This document shows, piece by piece, positions 3,695-61,848 of a DNA stretch of 64,000 nt (positions within the stretch are counted from its first letter, which is position 1; each line of letters opens with the position of its first letter). A program made the translations under genes and the position numbers. A model generated the notes under the pieces. It was not told the origin of the DNA, did not search any database, and saw only the letters and a list, made by a program, of their open reading frames with translations. Origin of the DNA: Dyadobacter fermentans DSM 18053 (GTDB lineage: Bacteria; Bacteroidota; Bacteroidia; Cytophagales; Spirosomataceae); contig NC_013037.1 in the NCBI RefSeq assembly GCF_000023125.1, positions 5,868,501 through 5,932,500 of the forward strand, given 5' to 3'.

Positions 3695-3712
3695 CTGTCC
3701 GATTTTGAACAG
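3695..3712 (+). promoter_or_regulatory. Operator A: 18-bp dyad CTGTCC-N6-GAACAG
   Basis: Imperfect inverted repeat CTGTCCG-N4-TGAACAG. The same dyad occurs upstream of the permeases at 12963 and 61642 (minus strand). It lies 41 bp upstream of a TTGGTAT box at 3754. Position and repetition suggest an upstream activator or enhancer site; the cognate regulator is not in the window. Confidence 0.65.
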
Positions 3713-3753
3713 TGTTCTTAGGGTAAATGTCTGATAAATAATGGTTTGGGTTA

Positions 3754-3771
3754 TTGGTATGAAATTGTTGC
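3754..3771 (+). promoter_or_regulatory. TTGGTAT...TTGC promoter-like box of permease operon
   Basis: TTGGTAT is followed by ATTGTTGCCGGA, nearly the same as at 12868-12885. The TTGG element resembles a sigma-54 -24 box, but TTGC lies 2 bp further away than the canonical -12 spacing, so sigma-54 use is uncertain here. It sits 38 bp before the ATG at 3810. Confidence 0.4.
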
Positions 3772-3809: not shown

Positions 3810-6191
3810 ATGTTAAAGAACTATTTCAAAATTGCCTTCCGGAACCTCTGGAAGCACAAGGTATTTTCACTGATCAACATCCTCGGACTCACCGTAGGGA
3901 TGTCGGCCTGCCTGCTGATTTCCATGTACGTCCATTTCGAGCTGACGTACGACGCGTTCCACAGCAAGGCCGATCGCATTTACCGCGTGGTGACGGACAT
4001 TAAAACGCCTTCGGAGACGATTCATGCGGGAATCACGTCGTGGGCTTACGCGCCCGCCATGAAGCAGGACTTCCCAGAGGTCGAATCCTTTGCGCGGATC
4101 AATGGCGGGAGCTTCCTGGTCCGAAAGGGTGATATCAAATTTCAGGAAGAAGCGACGGTCTTTGCCGACTCGTCGCTTTTTCGTGTATTCGACTTCAAAT
4201 TAGTCAAAGGCGATCCCGGAACGGCGTTGAAAGAGCCGCTAAGCATTGTTTTTACGGAAAAAGCGGCCAAAAAGTATTTCGGCGACAGCGATCCGATCGG
4301 CCAAACACTGCTGCTCTCGGGCGATAGGCTTCCCGCCAAAGTTACCGGTGTGATGCAGGATATGCCCGAAAATTCGCAGATCAAGGGCGATATGTTCATT
4401 TCGATGGCCACCATGACCCAGCGCTTCAACCGGGGCGTCGACGAGGAATGGGGAAATTTCGGCGCTACGTCCTATGTGCTGCTGAAACCCGGGACAAACA
4501 GCAAAGCATTTGAAAAGAAGCTGCCTGCATTTATGGAGCGCCGCGCGGGCAAGCTCATGCAAGAGGCCAAAATGCGCTACACGCTTTTCCTCGAACCGCT
4601 GCGCGACGTGCATTTGCATTCGACCCGCGACGTGGCTGAAAAAGGAAGCATGAACAACGTGTATGTGTTTTCCGTCGTGGCGGTCTTCATTCTGCTGATC
4701 GCCTGCATCAACTTCGTTAACCTCACCACCGCACGGTCGGCCGAACGGGCGCGCGAGGTAGGGATACGGAAGGTCGTAGGCGCCGCCAGGTCTTTGCTGG
4801 CGCGGCAGTTTGTGAGCGAATCGGTGATGCTGTGCCTCATTGCCTTCCTGTTTTCGGTAATGCTTTCGGCCGCGCTTGTGCCGCTTTTCAATAATCTGGC
4901 GGGAAAGGTGGTCGTTACCGGCCTTTTTGCCGATCCGTCGTTCCTGGTCTATATGTTTTTGGCGGCGATCGTGATCGGTGTGCTGGCGGGCATTTATCCG
5001 GCTTTGGTACTGTCGTCGTTTGAGCCGGTCACAGTGCTGAAAGGCCGTTTTACGACAAGTGTGAAGGGTATTTTATTAAGAAAAGGCTTGGTAACGGTCC
5101 AGTTTGCCATTTCCATTGCCCTGATCATCGCCACGATGGTCGTTTTCATCCAAATGCGCTACATGCGCAACCGCGATCTGGGTTTCAGCAAGGATCAGAT
5201 GCTGGTCATCAATACGGAGGGCGACCCGAAACGGGCGGCTTTCAAGGAATCGCTGGTGGGTCTCGCGGGCGTGAAATCCTCGGCTGCGTCGTCCAGCGTT
5301 CCGGGAAGCTTTAATCCAGGCGCTTACTCCGAAATCGAGAACAAAAGCGGTGATTTGCAGGTCGCAAACCTGGATCTGTATTTCGTCGATTTCGACTACA
5401 TTCACCAATTTGGGCTCAAAATGGCTGCCGGGAGGGCATTTTCCAAAGATTTTGGGACGGATACCACGCAGGCTATGGTCGTGAACGAAGCCGCATCCAG
5501 GCTGCTGGGTTACGCCAGGCCGGAAGAGGCGCTGGGCCGCCGGTTCAGGCAATGGGGGCGCGAGGGGACGATCATTGGTGTGGTGAAAGACTTCCATTTC
5601 AGGTCGTTGCAGGAAAATATCAAACCACTCACGATGCGGATCGAGCCGCGTAACTCCGACCTCGTATCCGTAAAGATCGAGGGCGGACGGCTGAAAGAAA
5701 CCGTGGCGGCCATCGAAGAGAAATGGAAGGGACTGATGCCCGACCGGCCATTCAGCTACTATTTCATGGACGAATTTTTCGACCGGCAGTACCGCAGCGA
5801 GGAGCGCTTTGAAAAGCTCTTCCTCAACTTCGCCATCCTGGCCATATTCATTTCCTGCCTCGGATTGCTGGGCCTGGCATCGTACAGTACCATGCAGCGC
5901 ACGAAGGAAATCGGCGTGCGGAAAGTAATGGGTGCGTCCGTTGCCAGCATCGTGGCCCTGCTTTCACGGGATTTTCTCAAGCTGGTCCTTATCGCATTTG
6001 TGGTCGCCTCGCCGGTTGCTTACTTCGGGATGGAGCGTTGGTTGCAGAATTTCGCCTATCGCACAGACATTTATTGGTGGGTTTTCGCCCTGGCGGCGGT
6101 GTTGTCCACGGCCATTGCATTTGGGACTGTAAGCTTCCAGAGCATCAAAGCGGCCATAATGAACCCGGTGAAAAGCCTTCGAAGCGAATAG
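3810..6191 (+). CDS. ABC transporter permease, FtsX/MacB type (paralogue P1)
   Basis: 793 residues with the duplicated layout of large Bacteroidota permeases: N-terminal TM (about 21-41), periplasmic MacB_PCD-like domain to about 280, FtsX core with three TMs (about 285-405, containing LIACINFVNLTTARSAERAREVGIRK split over the TM/loop boundary), a fifth TM near 430-450, a second periplasmic domain to about 670, and a final three-TM FtsX domain (EIGVRKVMGAS) ending in VKSLRSE. No nucleotide-binding domain is present, so it needs a partner ATPase; the only candidate in the window is at 52572. First gene of a three-permease operon; P2 starts 29 bp downstream. The transported substrate is unknown. 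Confidence 0.92.
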   Translation: MLKNYFKIAFRNLWKHKVFSLINILGLTVGMSACLLISMYVHFELTYDAFHSKADRIYRVVTDIKTPSETIHAGITSWAYAPAMKQDFPEVESFARINGGSFLVRKGDIKFQEEATVFADSSLFRVFDFKLVKGDPGTALKEPLSIVFTEKAAKKYFGDSDPIGQTLLLSGDRLPAKVTGVMQDMPENSQIKGDMFISMATMTQRFNRGVDEEWGNFGATSYVLLKPGTNSKAFEKKLPAFMERRAGKLMQEAKMRYTLFLEPLRDVHLHSTRDVAEKGSMNNVYVFSVVAVFILLIACINFVNLTTARSAERAREVGIRKVVGAARSLLARQFVSESVMLCLIAFLFSVMLSAALVPLFNNLAGKVVVTGLFADPSFLVYMFLAAIVIGVLAGIYPALVLSSFEPVTVLKGRFTTSVKGILLRKGLVTVQFAISIALIIATMVVFIQMRYMRNRDLGFSKDQMLVINTEGDPKRAAFKESLVGLAGVKSSAASSSVPGSFNPGAYSEIENKSGDLQVANLDLYFVDFDYIHQFGLKMAAGRAFSKDFGTDTTQAMVVNEAASRLLGYARPEEALGRRFRQWGREGTIIGVVKDFHFRSLQENIKPLTMRIEPRNSDLVSVKIEGGRLKETVAAIEEKWKGLMPDRPFSYYFMDEFFDRQYRSEERFEKLFLNFAILAIFISCLGLLGLASYSTMQRTKEIGVRKVMGASVASIVALLSRDFLKLVLIAFVVASPVAYFGMERWLQNFAYRTDIYWWVFALAAVLSTAIAFGTVSFQSIKAAIMNPVKSLRSE

Positions 6192-6220: not shown

Positions 6221-8650
6221 ATGTTGAGAAACTACCTGAAAATCATTTTCCGTAACCTCTGGAAAAACAAGGGATACGCCGCGATCAACATCGGCGGGCT
6301 GGCGATCGGCATGGGCGTGGCCATGCTGATCGGCCTGTGGATTTACGACGAGCTCTCTTTTAACCGCTATTTCAACAACTATGAACGGATTGGCCAGATC
6401 CATCAAAATCAGACCCGGAATGGAGAAAAGAAGACAGTGCCTTCATTGCCTGTCCCATTTGTCGGGGAGTTGAAAACACATTATGCGGGTTATTTCAAAC
6501 ACATCGTCGCCTCCACGCAAACGGGAGAATATATACTGACGGCGGGTGACACCAAGTTGTCGCGCAGCGGCCATTTTATCGATGCCGCCGGACCAGAACT
6601 GTTTTCCCTCCGCATGCTGCAAGGCTCGTGGTCGGCGCTGGAAGACAAGCAGGGCATTATCCTTTCGCAGTCGGCCGCCCGGGCGCTTTTCGGCGTCGCC
6701 GACCCGATGAACCAGATTGTGAAGGTGGACACCGATCTCCACCTCAAAGTCACCGGTGTTTACGAGGATTTTCCACAAAACACGAAGTTTAGCGATGTCC
6801 AGTTCATGGGCTCTTGGGACTATTTTCTCGAAAAGAACCGCTGGATGAAGGAGAAGAAATGGGATAACCACGCCATTTGGGTGTTTACGGAGCTGGCTGA
6901 GAATACCAGTTTTGAAGCAGCGAGTACGGGTATCAGGCTGTCGGAACTGAGCGTGATCCGCAGAATGGACGATATGAAGGAAGAGGCCGCCACCCGACCT
7001 GAAATGTGGGTGCATCCGATGAAAAATTGGCATTTGTATTCCGAATTCCGCAACGGCGCTGTGGGTGACGGGCCGGTGAAATACGTTTGGATGGTTGGCT
7101 TGATTGGTTTTTTTGTGCTGTTGCTGGCCTGTATCAACTTTGTAAACCTCAGCACGGCGCGGTCGGAGAAGCGTGCGCGGGAGGTGGGCGTGCGTAAGGC
7201 GATCGGTTCGTTGAGGACCCAGCTCATCGGGCAGTTTTTCAGCGAGTCGTTGCTTGTGGTGACGGTGTCTTTCCTGCTGGCGCTGGCCGGCGTGGTGCTG
7301 GCATTGCCGTGGTTCAATAATCTGGCGGCGAAGCAAATGATCGTTCCCTGGGACAATCCCTATTTCTGGATCTCCTGTGTGGGCTTTGTGCTGATCACTT
7401 CGGTGCTTGCGGGTAGCTATCCGGCTATTTATCTCACGTCTTTTCAGCCTGTAAAGGTCCTGAAAGGCGGAGGCGCTTCTCTCAGGACGCATTTCGGGCG
7501 CTTTGCCTACACGCCCCGTCAGGTTCTGGTTGTTTTGCAATTCACCATTTCGGTGACGCTCATCATTTGTACAACGATCGTCTATCGCCAGATTCAGTTC
7601 GCGAAACAGCGGTCGGTGGGTTACACACGGGAAGGATTACTGATGATACCCATGAAAACCGACGATTTTTATGGAAAAGCCGGGATTTTCCGGGCAGAAC
7701 TCAAAAATACCGGCCTGGTGGAAGAAGTGGCCGAGTCGCAAAGCCCGGTAACCGGTGTCTGGTCGGCTAATGACGGTTTCAGCTGGAACGGAATGCCGGA
7801 AGGATTTACGGAAACTTTCGCAACCCTCACAGTTTCCGCCGACTATGCGCGAACCGTCGGCTGGCAATTCGTGCGCGGACGCAATTTTTCTGCCAGTTTC
7901 GCCTCCGATACTTCCGGCTTTGTGATCAATGAGTCGGCGGCGCGCCTGCTGGGCGTAGCGGATCCGGTCGGGATGGTCGTTTCCTGGAAAAGTCAATGGA
8001 TGACGGACAACATCCGGAAGCAATTCACGGTGCTGGGTGTGGTGAAAGATATGGTGATGGAATCCCCGTTCGAGGCTGTGCGGCCCACCGTGTTTTTCCT
8101 TTCCGGTTCTCCCAACTGGATCAATATCAGGCTTAATGCCCATGTAAGCGCGGCCGAGGCATTACCGGCCATTGAAAACGTATTTAAAAAACTGGTGCCG
8201 GCCGCGCCGTTCGAATACAAGTTTGCCGACACGGAATACGACACCAAGTTCAGGAACGAAGAGCGGGTAGGGAAACTGGCCGGTTTTTTTGCGGCGCTGG
8301 CGATCGTCATCAGCTGCCTCGGACTGTTTGGACTGGCTTCCTTCACCGCAGAGCAGCGAACCAGGGAAATAGGCATCCGGAAAGTACTGGGCGCGTCGGT
8401 AACCGCGTTGTGGCGCATGCTTTCAAGGGATTTCGTCCTGCTGGTGGCGGTAGCGAGCGCCATCGCCGCGCCGCTGGCGTGGTATTCGATGAGCGAATGG
8501 CTGAAAAACTACCAGTACCGCACCGAAATAAGTTGGTGGATATTTGTCCTCGCGGCAGCAGGCGCACTCGTGCTCACGCTCGTGACGGTAAGTTACCAGG
8601 CGGTGAAAGCAGCCTGGCTCGATCCCATTAAAAGTCTGAAAACGGAATGA
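6221..8650 (+). CDS. ABC transporter permease, FtsX/MacB type (paralogue P2)
   Basis: 809 residues with the same architecture as P1: conserved start (MLRNYLKIIFRNLWKNKG), TM1 about 23-43, periplasmic domain, FtsX segment with LLACINFVNLSTARSEKR and REVGVRKAIGS, a second periplasmic domain and a C-terminal FtsX domain (REIGIRKVLGAS) ending in IKSLKTE. The stop codon overlaps the start of P3 by 4 nt (ATGA), implying translational coupling. It lacks an ATPase domain. Divergence from P1 is strongest in the periplasmic domains, which in MacB-like proteins contact the adaptor or substrate; this is the likeliest basis for functional specialisation. Confidence 0.92.
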   Translation: MLRNYLKIIFRNLWKNKGYAAINIGGLAIGMGVAMLIGLWIYDELSFNRYFNNYERIGQIHQNQTRNGEKKTVPSLPVPFVGELKTHYAGYFKHIVASTQTGEYILTAGDTKLSRSGHFIDAAGPELFSLRMLQGSWSALEDKQGIILSQSAARALFGVADPMNQIVKVDTDLHLKVTGVYEDFPQNTKFSDVQFMGSWDYFLEKNRWMKEKKWDNHAIWVFTELAENTSFEAASTGIRLSELSVIRRMDDMKEEAATRPEMWVHPMKNWHLYSEFRNGAVGDGPVKYVWMVGLIGFFVLLLACINFVNLSTARSEKRAREVGVRKAIGSLRTQLIGQFFSESLLVVTVSFLLALAGVVLALPWFNNLAAKQMIVPWDNPYFWISCVGFVLITSVLAGSYPAIYLTSFQPVKVLKGGGASLRTHFGRFAYTPRQVLVVLQFTISVTLIICTTIVYRQIQFAKQRSVGYTREGLLMIPMKTDDFYGKAGIFRAELKNTGLVEEVAESQSPVTGVWSANDGFSWNGMPEGFTETFATLTVSADYARTVGWQFVRGRNFSASFASDTSGFVINESAARLLGVADPVGMVVSWKSQWMTDNIRKQFTVLGVVKDMVMESPFEAVRPTVFFLSGSPNWINIRLNAHVSAAEALPAIENVFKKLVPAAPFEYKFADTEYDTKFRNEERVGKLAGFFAALAIVISCLGLFGLASFTAEQRTREIGIRKVLGASVTALWRMLSRDFVLLVAVASAIAAPLAWYSMSEWLKNYQYRTEISWWIFVLAAAGALVLTLVTVSYQAVKAAWLDPIKSLKTE

Positions 8651-11025
8651 TAGGCAGCTACTTAAAATTTACGCTTCGCAGCCTGTTGAAAAACAGGGTG
8701 TACACGGGAATCAACCTCGCAGGCCTGGCTGTGGGCATGGCAGGTGCAATCGTGATCTTTCAGCTGGTGAAGCACCACCTGTCCACCGACCGTTACCATC
8801 AGAATGCCGCGCGTACCTACCGGGTAGTGGTGGACCTGCACCTGGACGACGGCTCGGTGGAGCAGGAGCGCGGTTCGGCTTTTGTTTTGCACGAAACATT
8901 GAAAAAGGATTTCAGCTCAGTCGGGAATGCTGCTTACGTGGCGCGCAAAGAAGTTACGATACGCGTTGATAGCGGCGGGGCTTCGAGGAAGTTCCTGGAA
9001 AAGGACCTGGTTTTTACCAATGCTGATTACTTCAAAATATTCGACTATCAATGGATCAGCGGGAATGCCTCGGCGATGTCCGCACCGAACCAGGCGATTG
9101 TGACGGAGCGTTATGCCCGGAAATATTTCGGGAATGGCCAGGCATTGGGCAAAGTGATCCGTGCCGATAACCGCGAAAACCTCGTGATTGCAGGCATTGT
9201 AGCCGACTATCCCGCGCAAACCGATTTTCGTTATGATATTTTTGTTTCGCTCCCAACCATCCGAAAGATCGTTCCCGAGTATGGCTACGAAGACTGGGGC
9301 TGGATTGACAGCAACCGTGAAACCTACATTACACTCCGGTCGCCGGACGATAAGGCGGCATTCGAGGCACAGATGCCGGCGTTCGCGCAGAAATATTACG
9401 GTCCCGACGACCGGGTGTTCCATTACCGTTTGCAGGACCTGTCCGATGTGCATTTTAATGTCGCATATGGCGGGAAAATCAAGTATAACACCATCATTGT
9501 CCTCGCAACGGTGGGCATTTTGCTCGTTCTCATCGCGTGTTTCAACTTCATTAACCTATCCACGGCCCAGGCATTCAAGCGCAGCAAGGAAGTGGGCGTG
9601 AGAAAAGTGCTCGGCGTATCGCAGGCGCAGGTATTCTGGCTGTTTATCCAGGAAACCGCATTGCTGACTGTCGTCGCCGGAGCGGCATCCATTGGCATAG
9701 CCTGGCTTTTTGCGCCGGTACTGAGCCGGTGGCTCGGACTAGGTCTACGGGTGAATGTGCTGACAGATCCGCTATTGATGGTATTTTTTGCCGCGCTGCT
9801 GCTTTTTGTAATCGTGCTCGCGGGTATTTATCCGGCATTCGTCATTTCAAATTTCAATCCCGTAAAGGCGATCAAAGGCTTGCTGAAAGATCATAACCGC
9901 AGCTTTTTCTCCGTCAGAAAAGGGCTTGTGGTGACGCAGTTCAGCATTTCGTTTGTCCTGATCGCCGTTTCTACACTGATATTCCTGCAATCCGAATTTT
10001 TGAAAAACAAGGATTTGGGCGTCGACAAAAATCTGGTGCTGCATTTGAACCTGCCGGAAGCCGAAACAAGCAAGCTATCGGCATTGCGCAATGAGCTGGC
10101 GGCATTGCCGGAAGTAGCGGAACTGTCGTTCTTCCGCAGCGCGCCATCGGTGCAGACGAGCGGCGGCGGCACCATTAAGTTCGAAAACCGTGACTGGGAG
10201 AAATTCGTGGCACGTTCCAGGGCAGCGGATGCGCATTTTGTAAAAACCTACGGCCTGAAACTGGTCGCAGGACGGGCTCCGGCGCATTCGGACACGCTCA
10301 ATGAACTGCTGATCAACCGGAAACTGGTGAAAGCACTCGGCCTGAAATCGCCCGAAGATGCATTGAACCGGCGTTTGCACGTGGGCGATGCGGGTAAAAC
10401 GGGCACTATCGTGGGCGTGCTGTCGGATTTTAACAATGGCGACCTCTACACCGGCATCGAGCCGACGATCGTCTATGCCGACCAGAAGCGCTACCGCCGG
10501 GCGGGCGTCAAGCTCAGGCTTATCAGCGCGCCTACCATCCCGCGGATCGCCGCCGTTTGGCAAAAACACTTCCCTGAAAATGTTTTCGAGTATACTTTCT
10601 ACGACGAAGAGATAGCGGCATTCTACCAGCGCGAGGAACTCGCGACGCGCCTGACGACCACTTTTGCATTGCTGTCGGTTTGCCTTTCATGCCTGGGATT
10701 GTTCGGGCTCGCCATTTTCGCAATTGAACAGCGCACAAAGGAAATAGGCATCCGCAAAGTGCTGGGGGCTTCGGTGGCGGGCATTACGGCCATGCTGTCG
10801 ATGGACTTTCTGAAACTGGTGATCGTCGCGATTGTGGTGGCGAGCCCGGTAGCCTGGTATTTTATGGAGCGCTGGTTGCAGGACTTTGCATACCGCGTGC
10901 CGGTCCATTGGGGCATCTTCGTTTGGGCAGGCGCGCTGGCTGCAGGCATTGCCCTGGCGACCGTCAGTTTCCAAAGCATCCGCGCCGCATTGACCGACCC
11001 CGTGAAGAGTTTGAAAAATGAATAG
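8647..11025 (+). CDS. ABC transporter permease, FtsX/MacB type (paralogue P3)
   Basis: 792 residues, third gene of the operon, overlapping P2 by 4 nt. Layout as in P1: TM1 about 18-38, periplasmic domain, TMs around LIACFNFINLSTAQAFKRSKEVGVRK, second periplasmic domain, and C-terminal FtsX domain with KEIGIRKVLGAS, ending in VKSLKNE. The N-terminus (MIGSYLKFTLRSLLKNRV) is the most divergent of the set. It is followed at once by the remnant of a fourth copy (11038-11198), showing that the array was longer. Confidence 0.92.
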   Translation: MIGSYLKFTLRSLLKNRVYTGINLAGLAVGMAGAIVIFQLVKHHLSTDRYHQNAARTYRVVVDLHLDDGSVEQERGSAFVLHETLKKDFSSVGNAAYVARKEVTIRVDSGGASRKFLEKDLVFTNADYFKIFDYQWISGNASAMSAPNQAIVTERYARKYFGNGQALGKVIRADNRENLVIAGIVADYPAQTDFRYDIFVSLPTIRKIVPEYGYEDWGWIDSNRETYITLRSPDDKAAFEAQMPAFAQKYYGPDDRVFHYRLQDLSDVHFNVAYGGKIKYNTIIVLATVGILLVLIACFNFINLSTAQAFKRSKEVGVRKVLGVSQAQVFWLFIQETALLTVVAGAASIGIAWLFAPVLSRWLGLGLRVNVLTDPLLMVFFAALLLFVIVLAGIYPAFVISNFNPVKAIKGLLKDHNRSFFSVRKGLVVTQFSISFVLIAVSTLIFLQSEFLKNKDLGVDKNLVLHLNLPEAETSKLSALRNELAALPEVAELSFFRSAPSVQTSGGGTIKFENRDWEKFVARSRAADAHFVKTYGLKLVAGRAPAHSDTLNELLINRKLVKALGLKSPEDALNRRLHVGDAGKTGTIVGVLSDFNNGDLYTGIEPTIVYADQKRYRRAGVKLRLISAPTIPRIAAVWQKHFPENVFEYTFYDEEIAAFYQREELATRLTTTFALLSVCLSCLGLFGLAIFAIEQRTKEIGIRKVLGASVAGITAMLSMDFLKLVIVAIVVASPVAWYFMERWLQDFAYRVPVHWGIFVWAGALAAGIALATVSFQSIRAALTDPVKSLKNE

Positions 11026-12774: not shown

Positions 12775-12798
12775 GCCTTGTCCACCGGTGAACAAGGC
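12775..12798. repeat. 24-bp near-perfect palindrome abutting operator B
   Basis: GCCTTGT-C-CACCGGTG-A-ACAAGGC: one mismatch pair, centre ACCGGT. It lies 16 bp after the Wzi stop and its last base is the first base of the 18-bp operator B. No T-run follows, so an intrinsic terminator is unlikely; it may be a second protein-binding site. Confidence 0.55.
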
Positions 12799-12815
12799 TG
12801 TCCGATTTCGGACAG
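12798..12815 (+). promoter_or_regulatory. Operator B: perfect dyad CTGTCCGA-TT-TCGGACAG
   Basis: Perfect 8-bp arms with a 2-bp centre, the best copy of the element found also at 3695-3712 and 61746-61763. It lies 52 bp upstream of the CTGGCAT box at 12868. Its location far upstream of the promoter-like box fits an activator or enhancer site better than a simple repressor site. Confidence 0.7.
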
Positions 12816-12867
12816 TAGGCACTCGTTTCATCTCTTTAATGTGCTGATTATTAAACCGTTGTTTGTG

Positions 12868-12885
12868 CTGGCATACATTTGTTGC
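12868..12885 (+). promoter_or_regulatory. CTGGCAT...TTGC promoter-like box of permease P5
   Basis: CTGGCAT then TACATTTG and TTGCCGGA. Two readings are possible: TACATTTG (12873-12880) is a perfect Bacteroidota -7 element, or CTGGCAT is a sigma-54-like -24 element with TTGC 2 bp too far downstream. The block is almost identical to 3754-3771. The ATG of P5 lies 77 bp downstream. Confidence 0.45.
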
Positions 12886-12962: not shown

Positions 12963-15359
12963 ATGCTCAGAAATTACCTCAAAATCGCCCTCCGGAACAT
13001 CTGGAAGAACAAGGCTTTTTCGGCCATTAACATCGTTGGACTTGCGGTAGGAATGGCTGCCTGCATTGTGATTATGCTGTTCGTTTCGTACGAGCGCAGC
13101 TTCGATCGGATGCATTCAAAGCATATTTTCCGGCTCAACGAAGTGCAGACGTTCGACGGCATGACTTCACAGAATGTCGCATTGAGCATGTACCCGATGG
13201 GGCCGACGTTGAAACAGGAATTTTCGGAGGTCAAAAGCTTTGTGCGGATCAACGGAACGGGGAAAATGCCGGTTTTTTACAATGGTAAGCGGGTGGAGCT
13301 GAACCAGTCGTTCCTGACCGACCCGGATTTTTTCAGCATGTTTGATTTCAAACTCGAAGAGGGTGACAGCCGTAAAGTGCTGACTGAGCCGAATTCGGTG
13401 GTACTCACGCGCACGACCGTTTCCAAACTGTTCGGCAATGAGGACGCGATAGGCCGGAATATCCACCTTTACGCCAACGACACCCTCACGCTCAAAGTGA
13501 CGGGGATTATGGAGGATGTGCCGGGCAACTCGCATTTGCAGTTTGATGCGCTGGTATCGTTCAATACCATCGCCAAGCCCGATTTCATGGAAAACTGGGG
13601 AAGTAATTACCTCAATACTTACCTCGAACTGGCCGCGCAAACGGACGTGGCAGCTCTGGAAAAGAAGTTTCCGGCTTACCTCAAAAGGCACATGAAGGAC
13701 GAGCACTGGAAGCATTTCAAGCTCTTCTTGCAGCCGTTAAAGGACATCCACGCCGGCTCTACGGACATTACCCATGATTACATCAACTTCCAGAAGTTCG
13801 ACGTCCGGTACACCTATGTATTTTCAATCATCGCGGCGATTGTGCTCATTATCGCCTGTGTGAACTTCATGAACCTGTCCACCGCCCGCTCTGCCGCACG
13901 TGCGAAAGAGGTGGGCATTCGCAAGTCGATAGGGGCGAGGCGGGCCGAACTGGCGAGGCAATTTATCGGCGAATCGGTGCTGCTGGCATTGCTCGCGCTG
14001 GTGCTTGCGGCGGGGATCGTTTGGCTGGTGATGCCGGCAGTGGCGAATTTCAGCCGGCGGCCGCTGGATTTTTCCTTTATCGAAAATCCGTTGCTGCTGC
14101 CGGTGCTGCTTACGGGAACCGTGCTGATCGGTATTGCTTCGGGCGTTTATCCGGCATTCTTCCTCTCGGCCTATGAGCCTGTGAAGGTGCTCAAAGGTTT
14201 GGTGCGTTCGGGCAAAAGCAGTTTCAGGAATGCCCTCGTGGTTGCGCAGTTTTCAAGCGCCGTGTTCCTGATCATCGCTACGGCATTTGCCGTAAAGCAA
14301 TTGAACTACATGCTGGACAAGCATCCGGGATTTGAGAAGGACCAGGTGGTCGTTATTCCGCTGGATTCGCGGTCGGATACGAAATATGAGGCATTGAAAC
14401 GGGAAATGCTGCGCAGCGCATTTGTCGGAAATGTCACCGGTTCGCAGCAGCGGCTGGGTAATAACCTGCACCAAACGGCTGTCAATTTTCAGGGAACGGG
14501 CGCCAAAAGGGAGCTCACCTCGTCGCAAATCATTGTCGATCCCGACTTTTTAAGCCTTTATCAAATTAAACTGATCGCAGGTCGTGACTTTACCGATAAC
14601 CCGGCCGATAACGGGAAAACCTACATCATTAACAAAGCATTGGCCAAAGAGCTGCTCCTGAAAGAGCCGACGCTCACGATGGAAACACTGATCGGCAAAC
14701 GCTTCGGTTTCTACGGAATGGATTCGTTGTCGAGCATTGTGGGTGTGGTGGAGGATTTCAACTTCAACTCTTTGCACCACCAAATCGAACCTTTGTGCAT
14801 TTTCAACCAGAAAGACTGGATGTACTCCGAAATGTCGGTGCGGATCAAAGGGAAGGATGCCCGGCAGGCAGTTACGGCCATGCAGGCTGCGTGGAGCAAG
14901 ATCCTTCCGCAGGAGCCCTTTAGGTACTCTTTCCTGGACGAGCATTTCGCGGAAATGTACCGGGCCGATAGCCAGGTGAGCGAAATCGTAGGCATTCTGG
15001 CGGGACTTGCGGTGTTTATTTCGTGCCTCGGACTGTTTGGGCTGGCGTCGTATTCGGCCGAGCGGAGGATCAAGGAAATCGGGGTGCGAAAGGTCATGGG
15101 CGCCTCGGTAGCGGGCATTGTGGCATTGCTCTCGCGTGATTTTCTCAAACTCGTGCTCCTGGCCATTCTGATCGCCTCGCCACTCGCTTGGTTTGCCGTG
15201 CGGGCCTGGCTGAAAGATTTCGCCTATCGCATCGACATCGAGTGGTGGATGTTCCTGCTGGCGGGCGTGCTGGCCGTGCTGGTAGCATTGCTCACGGTGA
15301 GTTTCCAGAGTATCAAAGCGGCGCTCATGAACCCCGTTAATTCGCTCAGGACCGATTAG
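12963..15359 (+). CDS. ABC transporter permease, FtsX/MacB type (paralogue P5)
   Basis: 798 residues from ATG 12963. An upstream in-frame TTG at 12879 lies inside the promoter box and is rejected; the chosen start gives the family N-terminus MLRNYLKIALRNIWKNKAF. TM1 about 22-42, periplasmic domain, FtsX core (IACVNFMNLSTARSAAR, then KEVGIRKSIGARR), second periplasmic domain, and final FtsX domain (KEIGVRKVMGAS) ending in VNSLRTD. No ATPase domain. It is a single-gene unit with its own operator B and promoter. Confidence 0.92.
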   Translation: MLRNYLKIALRNIWKNKAFSAINIVGLAVGMAACIVIMLFVSYERSFDRMHSKHIFRLNEVQTFDGMTSQNVALSMYPMGPTLKQEFSEVKSFVRINGTGKMPVFYNGKRVELNQSFLTDPDFFSMFDFKLEEGDSRKVLTEPNSVVLTRTTVSKLFGNEDAIGRNIHLYANDTLTLKVTGIMEDVPGNSHLQFDALVSFNTIAKPDFMENWGSNYLNTYLELAAQTDVAALEKKFPAYLKRHMKDEHWKHFKLFLQPLKDIHAGSTDITHDYINFQKFDVRYTYVFSIIAAIVLIIACVNFMNLSTARSAARAKEVGIRKSIGARRAELARQFIGESVLLALLALVLAAGIVWLVMPAVANFSRRPLDFSFIENPLLLPVLLTGTVLIGIASGVYPAFFLSAYEPVKVLKGLVRSGKSSFRNALVVAQFSSAVFLIIATAFAVKQLNYMLDKHPGFEKDQVVVIPLDSRSDTKYEALKREMLRSAFVGNVTGSQQRLGNNLHQTAVNFQGTGAKRELTSSQIIVDPDFLSLYQIKLIAGRDFTDNPADNGKTYIINKALAKELLLKEPTLTMETLIGKRFGFYGMDSLSSIVGVVEDFNFNSLHHQIEPLCIFNQKDWMYSEMSVRIKGKDARQAVTAMQAAWSKILPQEPFRYSFLDEHFAEMYRADSQVSEIVGILAGLAVFISCLGLFGLASYSAERRIKEIGVRKVMGASVAGIVALLSRDFLKLVLLAILIASPLAWFAVRAWLKDFAYRIDIEWWMFLLAGVLAVLVALLTVSFQSIKAALMNPVNSLRTD

Positions 15360-59245: not shown

Positions 59246-61642
59246 TTACTCCGCCTTCAACACCTTCACCGGATTAGTCAGCGCTGATTTCAATGCCTGC
59301 GAGCTTACCGTGAGCAGCGCGATGGCGATGGCGATAAGCCCGGCCAGGGCGAATATCCACCAGGATAGCGTTTCGCGGTATTCGAAATTTTGCAGCCATT
59401 TGTGCATGGCGTAGGCGGCGATGGGCGTGCCGATTGCGATGGCGACGAGCACCGGTTTTACGAAATCCCGCGACAGCATCAGCACCACATCCTGCACACT
59501 GGCACCGAGCACCTTGCGCACGCCGATCTCTTTCGTGCGGGCCTCCGCAGCAAATGCAGCGAGTCCGAACAAGCCCAGGCATGCGATAACGATCGCAAGC
59601 ACCGCAAATGCCAGCAGTATATTGCCCTGGCGCTGCTCCGACTGGTATTGTTTGGCAAAATTCTCATCAAGGAACTGGAATTCGGGGCGGGCTTCGGCGT
59701 CGAATGTCTTGTAAACCCGGCCAATGTGCGCAAGCGCTTCGGTGGTTTTGGCGGCGTTGATGCGGACGTATACATTGTCCTGCTCCGAAGGCGGCGCGAG
59801 CTGGATCACCAGCGGTTCAATTTTGTGTTGCAGCGAATAAGTGTGAAAGTCGCTCGTTACACCCACAACGGTCAGCTCTTTCACTTTCCCTTCCCCGTCT
59901 GCAGGGTAGCGCATGCGCTTGCCGAGGGGACTTTGCCATCCTTGCTTTTTCACCAATGCTTCATTCACGAGCACGGAGCCGGCCAGGTCGGCGGATGAGT
60001 TGGCAATGAAATCGCGGCCTTGCAAAAGTTTGATCTCCATCGTGCGCAGGTAATCGGCGTCGGCCATGAAACGCTGCGTCATTTGAGTGGTAGCGGGCAT
60101 TTCGCCGGTGTTGGTTTCTACAAACAATGCGGTGGAGCCGATGCTGTTGTTGCCGATGGGGTTACTCGCCGCCGCGGCGCTTTCCACTACCGGATTTTGT
60201 TCCAGTTTTTCTTTCAAAGCGCCCACCTGGGTCCGCACATCGTTTTTATCAATATGAAATGTGAGGACTTGATTTTTGTTAAAACCAAGGTCCTTGTGAT
60301 TCACATAACTGATTTGCCGGTACACAATGCCCGCGCACGCGATCATGACCACCGTGGCCGCAAACTGGAACACCACCAGCGACTGCCGGAAACCCGCACC
60401 GCCCGGCTGGTTGCCCAGCTGCCCTTTCAAGGCCATCACCGGCCGGTAGCCCGATAGCATTAATGCCGGGTACATGCCGCTCAGCAGTCCGATCACCAGC
60501 AGGAATGCCGCCGCAATGCCCAGCGTAAGGAGGTCGTCGTTGCGGTAATGCAGCGTCAGCGTTTTTTCGGCCAGTTGGTTGAAGAATGGTAAGGCCGCTT
60601 TTGCGAGCAGAAATCCCGCCAGGCCGGCGAGCAGGGTCATCAGAAACGACTCCGTCAAGAACTGGCCCACGAGCTGGAACCGCTGCGAACCGATAGCCTT
60701 GCGCACGCCCACCTCGCGAATGCGTTTGAGCGAACGGGCGGTGTAGAGGTTCACATAATTGATGCAAGCGATGACGAGGATGAGCAAGGGGATGGCAGAG
60801 AAAATGTAAACCGTGTTGATATTACCATTCGGGCTGATCTCGTAATCGAGCTGCGAATGCAGGTGAATGTCTGTCAGTGGCTGCAAATCCATGTGGTAAT
60901 CCGCATCGCCAATCTCTTTTTGCAGGTATTTGGCATAAAAGGCAGGGAATTTCGCTTCCAGTTTGGCCGCGTCGGCGCCTTCTTTGAGCAGAATATAAGT
61001 GTAAATGTCGCCAGCCTGCCAGCCGCTGGTGTAGTCGGGCGGCAGCGAGCGCAATGCGCTGAAATGCAGATGTGAGTTTACCGGAGTGTCTTCAATTACG
61101 CCTGTAACCGTGTTGGGAAAATTGTTGGAAAAGAATACGGTCTGCCCCATTGCCCGCGACGCATCGCCGAATAGCTTGGTAGCGAGGGTGTTGGTGAGCA
61201 CGATTTTCTGCGGACCGATGAGCGCCGTCGCCGGATTGCCGTGGAGAAAAGGGTAAGAGAAAACATCGAAAACGGATGGGTCGGTGAAATAAATGTCGTA
61301 AGCATCCACCTGCTTTTCCTGGAAACGGATCTTCCCGCCACCCTCGACGCTGATCCGAACCGTCTTTTCGATCTCCGGATATTCGTTTTGTAATGCAGGT
61401 GCGAATGGCGCCGAAGTAGGGGCGAGCTTGAAACTGCCCGTGGCCCATTGTGCCTGTTGCGTGACACGGAAAATACGGTCGGCTTTGGCGTGGAAGCGGT
61501 CGTAGCTGAGCTCGTCGGCAACGTAAAGAACCATCAGCCAGACGGCCGCAATGCCGATCCCCAGCCCGAGGATATTAAGCCCGCTGAACAGTCGCTGCTT
61601 GCGGATGTTCCTGAGCGATATTTTGAGGTAGTTGAATAGCAT
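59246..61642 (-). CDS. ABC transporter permease, FtsX/MacB type (paralogue P7)
   Basis: 798 residues: MLFNYLKISLRNIRKQRLFSG start, TM1 about 22-42, periplasmic domain, FtsX core (VIACINYVNLYTARSLKRIREVG across the boundary, then VRKAIGS), second periplasmic domain, and C-terminal FtsX domain (KEIGVRKVLGAS) ending in VKVLKAE. No ATPase domain. Single-gene unit with its own operator C and promoter on the minus strand; it converges on the PIN toxin gene with an 11-bp gap. Confidence 0.92.
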   Translation of the reverse strand: MLFNYLKISLRNIRKQRLFSGLNILGLGIGIAAVWLMVLYVADELSYDRFHAKADRIFRVTQQAQWATGSFKLAPTSAPFAPALQNEYPEIEKTVRISVEGGGKIRFQEKQVDAYDIYFTDPSVFDVFSYPFLHGNPATALIGPQKIVLTNTLATKLFGDASRAMGQTVFFSNNFPNTVTGVIEDTPVNSHLHFSALRSLPPDYTSGWQAGDIYTYILLKEGADAAKLEAKFPAFYAKYLQKEIGDADYHMDLQPLTDIHLHSQLDYEISPNGNINTVYIFSAIPLLILVIACINYVNLYTARSLKRIREVGVRKAIGSQRFQLVGQFLTESFLMTLLAGLAGFLLAKAALPFFNQLAEKTLTLHYRNDDLLTLGIAAAFLLVIGLLSGMYPALMLSGYRPVMALKGQLGNQPGGAGFRQSLVVFQFAATVVMIACAGIVYRQISYVNHKDLGFNKNQVLTFHIDKNDVRTQVGALKEKLEQNPVVESAAAASNPIGNNSIGSTALFVETNTGEMPATTQMTQRFMADADYLRTMEIKLLQGRDFIANSSADLAGSVLVNEALVKKQGWQSPLGKRMRYPADGEGKVKELTVVGVTSDFHTYSLQHKIEPLVIQLAPPSEQDNVYVRINAAKTTEALAHIGRVYKTFDAEARPEFQFLDENFAKQYQSEQRQGNILLAFAVLAIVIACLGLFGLAAFAAEARTKEIGVRKVLGASVQDVVLMLSRDFVKPVLVAIAIGTPIAAYAMHKWLQNFEYRETLSWWIFALAGLIAIAIALLTVSSQALKSALTNPVKVLKAE

Positions 61643-61679: not shown

Positions 61680-61695
61680 TCAATTTATATGCCAA
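61680..61695 (-). promoter_or_regulatory. Sigma-54-like promoter of permease P7
   Basis: On the minus strand TTGGCAT-N5-TTGA (61695 down to 61680), matching TTGGCAC-N5-TTGC at the normal spacing with C to A at the last -12 base. It lies 50 bp downstream of operator C and 38 bp before the ATG at 61642. Confidence 0.5.
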
Positions 61696-61745: not shown

Positions 61746-61772
61746 CTGTTCGTTAGCGGACAGCCCTGTTCG
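61746..61772 (-). promoter_or_regulatory. Operator C: dyad plus extra half-site
   Basis: On the plus strand CTGTTCG-N4-CGGACAG (61746-61763), followed by another CTGTTCG at 61766-61772, so three half-sites of the CTGTYCG type alternate in orientation. It is the third copy of the operator found at 3695 and 12798, upstream of permease P7 on the minus strand. Confidence 0.65.
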
Positions 61773-61848
61773 ACGGCGTACGCGCGTTTGCTGAAAATTA
61801 AGCGGGGAATTCCGCCCGGCAGGGGATAGGCAATGCCGTCAAAATCCC

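Follow-up and report, generated by a model that had tools for sequence, protein, structure and literature searches.

A conserved dyad upstream of dispersed FtsX/MacB-type permease units in Dyadobacter fermentans is the putative enhancer of an NtrC-type regulator

Results

The window analysed here, a stretch of 64,000 nucleotides of Dyadobacter fermentans DSM 18053 (genome positions 5868501-5932500 of a single 6.97-Mb contig), contains three permease units that share an upstream dyad. Unit 1 lies on the plus strand and consists of three permeases in tandem, of 793 aa with two MacB_PCD and two FtsX stretches (3810..6191), 809 aa (6221..8650) and 792 aa (8647..11025). The dyad CTGTCC-GATTTT-GAACAG (3695..3712, plus strand), a putative enhancer (UAS) scoring 21.0 in the matrix described below, stands before the first of these genes only, and the second and third have no dyad of their own. 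It is followed by a putative -24/-12 box, TGG-N7-TTG, at 3755..3767 (plus strand), 43 bp past the dyad core. Unit 2, on the same strand, is a permease of 798 aa with MacB_PCD and FtsX domains (12963..15359), preceded by the putative enhancer dyad CTGTCCGATTTCGGACAG at 12798..12815, whose matrix score of 24.5 is the highest among 29 permease promoters, and by a second dyad, TTGTCC-ACCGGT-GAACAA, 20 bp further upstream (12778..12795). Between dyad and gene lie a weak IHF-like site at 12849..12861 (position set by eye; one mismatch to the IHF consensus WATCAA-N4-TTR) and the putative -24/-12 box TGGCATACATTTG, with N7 spacing, at 12869..12881, 54 bp past the core. Unit 3 is encoded on the minus strand, where a permease of 798 aa, again MacB_PCD plus FtsX (59246..61642), is preceded by the putative enhancer dyad CTGTCCGCTAACGAACAG with an exact core (61746..61763), by a weak second dyad 20 bp upstream (61766..61783; matrix score 4.3) and, 52 bp past the core, by the putative -24/-12 box TGGCATATAAATTG with N8 spacing (61681..61694).

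These observations bear out an initial annotation of the window, which had described three dyads with these letters and positions, a box downstream of each, a large FtsX/MacB permease after each box, and units on both strands. TGG starts at 3755, at 12869 and, on the minus strand, at 61694, and the permeases that head the units have 793-798 aa. The spacing of 41-52 bp given there needs a small revision, as 43, 54 and 52 bp separate the 16-bp core (TGT...ACA) from TGG. Two dyads had been missed, namely those at 12778-12795 and, weakly, at 61766-61783. Both PF12704 and PF02687 exceeded their cut-offs in all seven permeases scanned. Allowing up to three mismatches, the window holds 15 dyad matches, a number reached in none of 100 shuffles (mean 7.7), and at zero or one mismatch the three annotated dyads are the only ones.

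Across the genome the dyad is enriched above background, chiefly before permeases. Because the strict 18-letter pattern stayed close to its control (146 versus 89 per strand at two mismatches), the 16-letter core was used instead. The exact form TGTYC-N6-GRACA occurs at 31 sites, versus 11 for a reversed-pattern control, and 16 of the 31 belong to 14 promoters, of which 10 serve large permeases, 3 serve PadR-permease operons (PadR above the Pfam cut-off in all three) and 1, with two dyads, serves an adaptor-ATPase-permease operon. The remaining 15 are not near such genes and are about as numerous as the control matches; 14 of them are located within a mechanical open reading frame of at least 120 codons, a weak mark since 5 of the 16 relevant dyads also carry it. 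When TGG-N8-TTG was additionally required 38-68 bp downstream, eight matches were obtained against none in the control. Six of the eight precede a permease of the PF12704 list; the other two belong to a PadR-permease operon and to the adaptor operon. At about genome position 3825500 (L198, 2499-3999), a permease that follows a PadR gene and a dyad seems to be broken across two frames; the PF12704 list does not contain it.

An independent matrix divided the large permeases into two groups. It was built from 64 18-mers, in both orientations, found upstream of the regulator described below in genomes outside Dyadobacter, and was applied to the 330 bp before each of 29 permeases with an open frame of 789-897 aa. 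Fifteen promoters scored 11.2-24.5 and the other 14 at most 2.2; in 280 kb of background from the same genome only four sites reached 10, the best at 13.5. Ten of the 14 permeases without a dyad have a same-strand open reading frame ending within 150 bp, and two sit behind PadR genes that themselves have an upstream dyad; the permease at 2221986 is divergent from a dyad-bearing unit, and that at 5851489 lies within a permease cluster. Seven of the 15 dyad-bearing permease promoters carry a second dyad (matrix score above 4) at a distance of 20-22 bp. Five weaker sites found with the matrix bring the total to 19 promoters. Permeases account for most of the regulon proposed in the initial annotation but not for all of it, as an adaptor-ATPase operon and PadR-permease operons are also included.

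The distance between dyad and box is tightly constrained. In D. fermentans the gaps are 41, 52, 53, 54, 55, 64, 64 and 65 bp, and in relatives, where 38-68 bp was allowed, 137 of 148 among the matches listed, which repeat some genomes and orthologous sites, have a gap of 51-55 or 62-66 bp, compared with 48 expected if gaps were uniform. The two clusters are about one helical turn apart, and being only two they cannot fix the helical period (concentration 0.73 at 10.5 bp versus 0.74 at 11-11.5 bp). Such spacing would be expected if the DNA looped with dyad and box on one helical face, and we regard it as the strongest sign that dyad and box work together. With respect to the box itself, the usual sigma-54 spacing is one base longer than TGG-N7-TTG, the form of two of the three window boxes (3755 and 12869); among the 19 promoters, 11 have an N8 box, 4 an N7 box and 4 no box by that pattern. 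IHF-like sites with at most one mismatch lie between dyad and box in 9 of the 19 promoters, as many as in none of 200 shuffles (mean 2.2); the support for a bend site comes from this test, in which the shuffler is an approximation.

Comparison with sister genomes showed that the dyad is retained before orthologues of all three window units. Unit 1 orthologues in G002, G041 and G044 (84, 87 and 77% identity) have the dyad with 0, 0 and 2 mismatches, and the unit 2 orthologues in the same genomes (75, 75 and 70%) have it with 0, 0 and 1 mismatch, each together with the second dyad at -20 and with a TGG-N7-TTG box at 54 bp, the same position as in the window. In G002 and G041, the orthologues of the two internal unit 1 permeases lack a dyad, the closest match having 4 mismatches. 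For unit 3 the only orthologue found (68%) is in G038, a genome that lacks close orthologues of units 1 and 2, and its exact dyad lies 97 bp upstream; the stretches examined of G002, G041 and G044 yielded no orthologue of this unit.

In a wider set of 148 relatives, the combined dyad and box pattern gave 486 matches versus 39 for the control, and 61 of these genomes have at least three matches, a number that no genome reached in the control. We examined the downstream gene at 29 relative loci, 27 of which could be oriented. A permease or adaptor was detected by tblastn within 500 bp in 12 of the 27, and reading the first open frame added five PadR-permease operons, two adaptor-like genes, one outer-membrane efflux gene (OEP) and one ATPase (labels assigned by eye, except for the OEP), giving 21 of 27; no such gene was near the dyad in the other 6. 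There is no broad spread through the phylum, in a sample of which 73 of 296 genomes match, mostly with 0-2 matches per genome. Among 27 chosen genomes, a comparison that is biased because they were picked partly for high or zero counts, 19 have a regulator relative at E <= 1e-130, and in 10 of these the combined pattern is absent; of the eight without such a relative at that threshold, one (G048) has two matches.

The initial annotation had called for a genome-wide enrichment scan, a comparison of sister species and a look for sigma-54 activators in the neighbourhood of such genes, and all three gave results in its favour. Neither of the two outcomes it had named as refuting, a background frequency of the dyad across the genome and a lack of conservation before orthologous permeases, was observed. 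Among 20 PF00158 hits in the genome, the candidate regulator is an NtrC-type response regulator at genome 5843666-5845033 on the minus strand (PF00158 hit at 5844068), about 23 kb before the start of the window, in line with the earlier statement that the regulator is not in the window. It contains REC (PF00072), Sigma54_activat (PF00158) and Fis-type HTH_8 (PF02954) domains, all above cut-off, and its divergent neighbours are an HlyD/RND-type adaptor, an ABC ATPase and a cluster of permeases; the intergenic stretch between regulator and adaptor carries two tandem dyads 20 bp apart together with TGGCATAGTGATTGG. Its loop reads GAFTDA, not GAFTGA, as it does in 19 of 20 orthologues compared, and other activators of the same genome have either GAFTGA or GAFTDA. 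All NCBIfam equivalogs matched by the regulator remained below their cut-offs, and its identity to named Dyadobacter contigs reaches 98%. One match to PF04552 marks the sigma-54 gene of D. fermentans, a presence that does not discriminate, since all 30 relatives tested also have PF04552.

The linkage between regulator and dyad extends well beyond this species. Among relatives of the regulator in named genomes (the best 80 of 115, many of them close kin and so not independent), 64 loci have an exact dyad in the 500 bp preceding the regulator, Chitinophaga included, and the other 16 have none in that interval; two dyads 20 or 21 bp apart are present in 50 of the 64. Within 1.04 Mb of regulator loci we counted 121 dyads, 114 of them in the upstream stretches of at most 500 bp, against 3 control matches. 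An adaptor is divergent from the regulator at 70 of these best 80 loci, and 64 of the 70 have the exact dyad; at two of the other six (L138 and L140) the dyad lies further off, beside an insertion and 1.2-1.7 kb from the regulator start, and the remaining four have dyads with one or two mismatches. None of the 10 loci without a divergent adaptor has an exact dyad (three are short contigs; L182 and L188 have a one-mismatch dyad), and three match-rich genomes (G051, G055 and G113) have no dyad in the 1.5-kb flanks of the regulator. A box follows the dyad in 63 of the 64 adaptor promoters, with dyad-to-TGG gaps of 53-55, 64-65, 74-75 and 85 bp (one promoter whose first hit is at 34 bp also has one at 64), and exact IHF-like sites are few there (10 of 64).

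A histidine kinase adjoins or follows the regulator at 39 of the same best 80 loci, and HATPase_c was found in all five kinases scanned. The D. fermentans relative of this kinase has 72% identity and lies 11 kb from the regulator, the next best hit having 28%; it is the candidate partner kinase (genome 5831280-5832605). The 28% hit adjoins a second activator gene, L053, in the region 6747810-6752941 (L036, L053), where that activator, with a GAFTDA loop, lies beside MacB-type genes of 452 and 392 aa; the region is perhaps a parallel two-component permease system. Regulator paralogues with GHSQEAVTDA in place of the GAFT(G/D)A loop occur in Dyadobacter tibetensis (L186) and in G029 (L227), at loci with no exact or one-mismatch dyad. 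The second regulator copy of G029 (L238) has GAFTDA and an exact dyad nearby.

Discussion

These results are best read as the initial annotation supposed, with one enhancer-dependent activator common to a dispersed regulon of permeases. Very probably, the dyad TGTYCG-N4-CGRACA is the enhancer of one signal-controlled NtrC-type activator, the product of 5843666-5845033, which would switch on a large and scattered family of export permeases in this bacterium and its relatives. The sequence itself shows the motif, its enrichment, phasing and conservation, and how it is linked to permeases and to the gene of the regulator. We infer binding of the dyad by this protein, its phosphorylation, the use of sigma-54 and activation in preference to repression from sequence, as we do the existence of a signal and of a cargo. 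In this model, the partner histidine kinase, for which 5831280-5832605 is the candidate, would phosphorylate the regulator upon a signal. Dimers of the phosphorylated regulator would bind the dyads, often doubled at 20-22 bp, and then oligomerise, and the oligomer, by DNA looping, would contact the sigma-54 polymerase held at the -24/-12 box and bring about promoter opening. The distance between dyad and box would step by a helical turn (about 43, 53, 64 or 75 bp), and an IHF-like bend between the two would sometimes assist. At least 19 dispersed promoters would be switched on, including those of the window units, the adjoining adaptor-ATPase-permease operon, the PadR-permease operons and further large FtsX/MacB-type permeases with two domains. 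Control of the regulator's own gene may also act through the intergenic stretch it shares with the adaptor. Adaptor, ATPase and permease occur together, joined in one relative by an outer-membrane channel, a set that suggests tripartite export across the envelope.

Could the dyad belong to a different NtrC-type activator? The paralogue L053 (genome 6750941), a neighbour of the MacB-type genes of 452 and 392 aa, shares the GAFTDA loop with the regulator and has a similar recognition helix, and the dyad would then adjoin the 5843666 regulator only because a neighbouring gene is a target. The dyad does track the adaptor promoter and not the regulator start, as seen at L138 and L140 and at the dyad-less loci that lack the adaptor. 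However, by coordinates no exact dyad among the 31 adjoins L053 or any activator hit other than the 5843666 regulator, and the linkage of regulator and dyad at 64 of 80 loci reaches Chitinophaga, so that we consider this alternative unlikely. Still less probable is that the dyad is the operator of a repressor, PadR or another dimeric regulator, overlapping ordinary permease promoters. A palindrome by itself cannot separate activator from repressor, and at least three D. fermentans units have a PadR gene after the dyad; but most dyad units of this genome have no PadR gene, and an operator would not be expected to keep helical phase with a -24/-12 box 43-75 bp away, to be repeated in tandem at 20-22 bp, to have intervening IHF-like sites or to be linked to a sigma-54 activator gene. 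That the dyads are chance palindromes, or were merely carried along by recent duplication of permease units, is very improbable given the reversed-pattern control, the matrix from other genera, the strict spacing, the absence of dyads before internal operon permeases and the conservation of the dyad across genera though its flanks differ, even if the permeases are paralogues whose promoters could have been copied along and no relevant gene accompanies 15 of the 31 exact dyads. We rejected a PadR operator, chance palindromes and mere duplicates as explanations.

Returning to the NtrC-type activator encoded at 5843666-5845033, we can speculate further. It is possible, and we put it forward tentatively, that nearly all of the paralogous permease family answers to a single two-component signal by way of a portable promoter cassette, composed of paired dyad, bend site and -24/-12 box and kept through duplication and dispersal. 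Many interchangeable permeases would then be produced jointly around a single adaptor-ATPase core, and sigma-54 in these bacteria would tolerate a conserved -24/-12 spacing one base shorter. For a large uncharacterised permease family of Cytophagales and Chitinophaga, we can name probable candidates for regulator, kinase and enhancer together with a list of likely targets, and the question of permease function therefore becomes testable: deletion of the single regulator gene should shift some 19 promoters together. The dyad also provides a sharp motif with which to locate the same regulon in further genomes.

The link between sigma-54 and these permeases is not new, because sigma-54 control of COG0577/FtsX-like permeases in Bacteroidia was predicted from promoter matrices in 2025 in a study that presents this as the first such evidence (PMC12316311). 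That work resembles ours in tying sigma-54 promoters to the same permease family in the same phylum; its passages on these permeases give no enhancer motif or specific regulator, and the terms 'UAS' and 'bEBP' are absent from its main text. In the literature searched we found no description of the enhancer, its phasing, the regulator or the kinase, and an earlier description of the motif is possible.

Sigma-54 regulons with tandem enhancers are well known for the NtrC family (NtrC, ZraR and PspF type). The present system shares with them a REC-AAA-Fis activator, dyads paired at about two helical turns, an IHF-like site, a -24/-12 box and phased spacing, and differs in its enhancer sequence, in the GAFTDA loop, in having mainly one large paralogous permease family as targets and in four N7 boxes of its own. 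The adjoining operon resembles the darobactin exporter DarBCD and MacAB-type tripartite exporters, in which adaptor, ATPase and two-domain permease are likewise joined in one operon; however, the Dar models stay below their cut-offs (DarC 185 of 450, DarD 274 of 375, DarB 92-173 of 700), and there are far more permeases here. Among the duplicated orphan permeases (ADOP, TIGR03434), a link to PadR is known from acidobacteria. The present family resembles ADOP in its full-length two-domain match and in its PadR-linked members; the five D. fermentans permeases scored reached 235-364 bits, below the TIGR03434 cut-off of 622.3.
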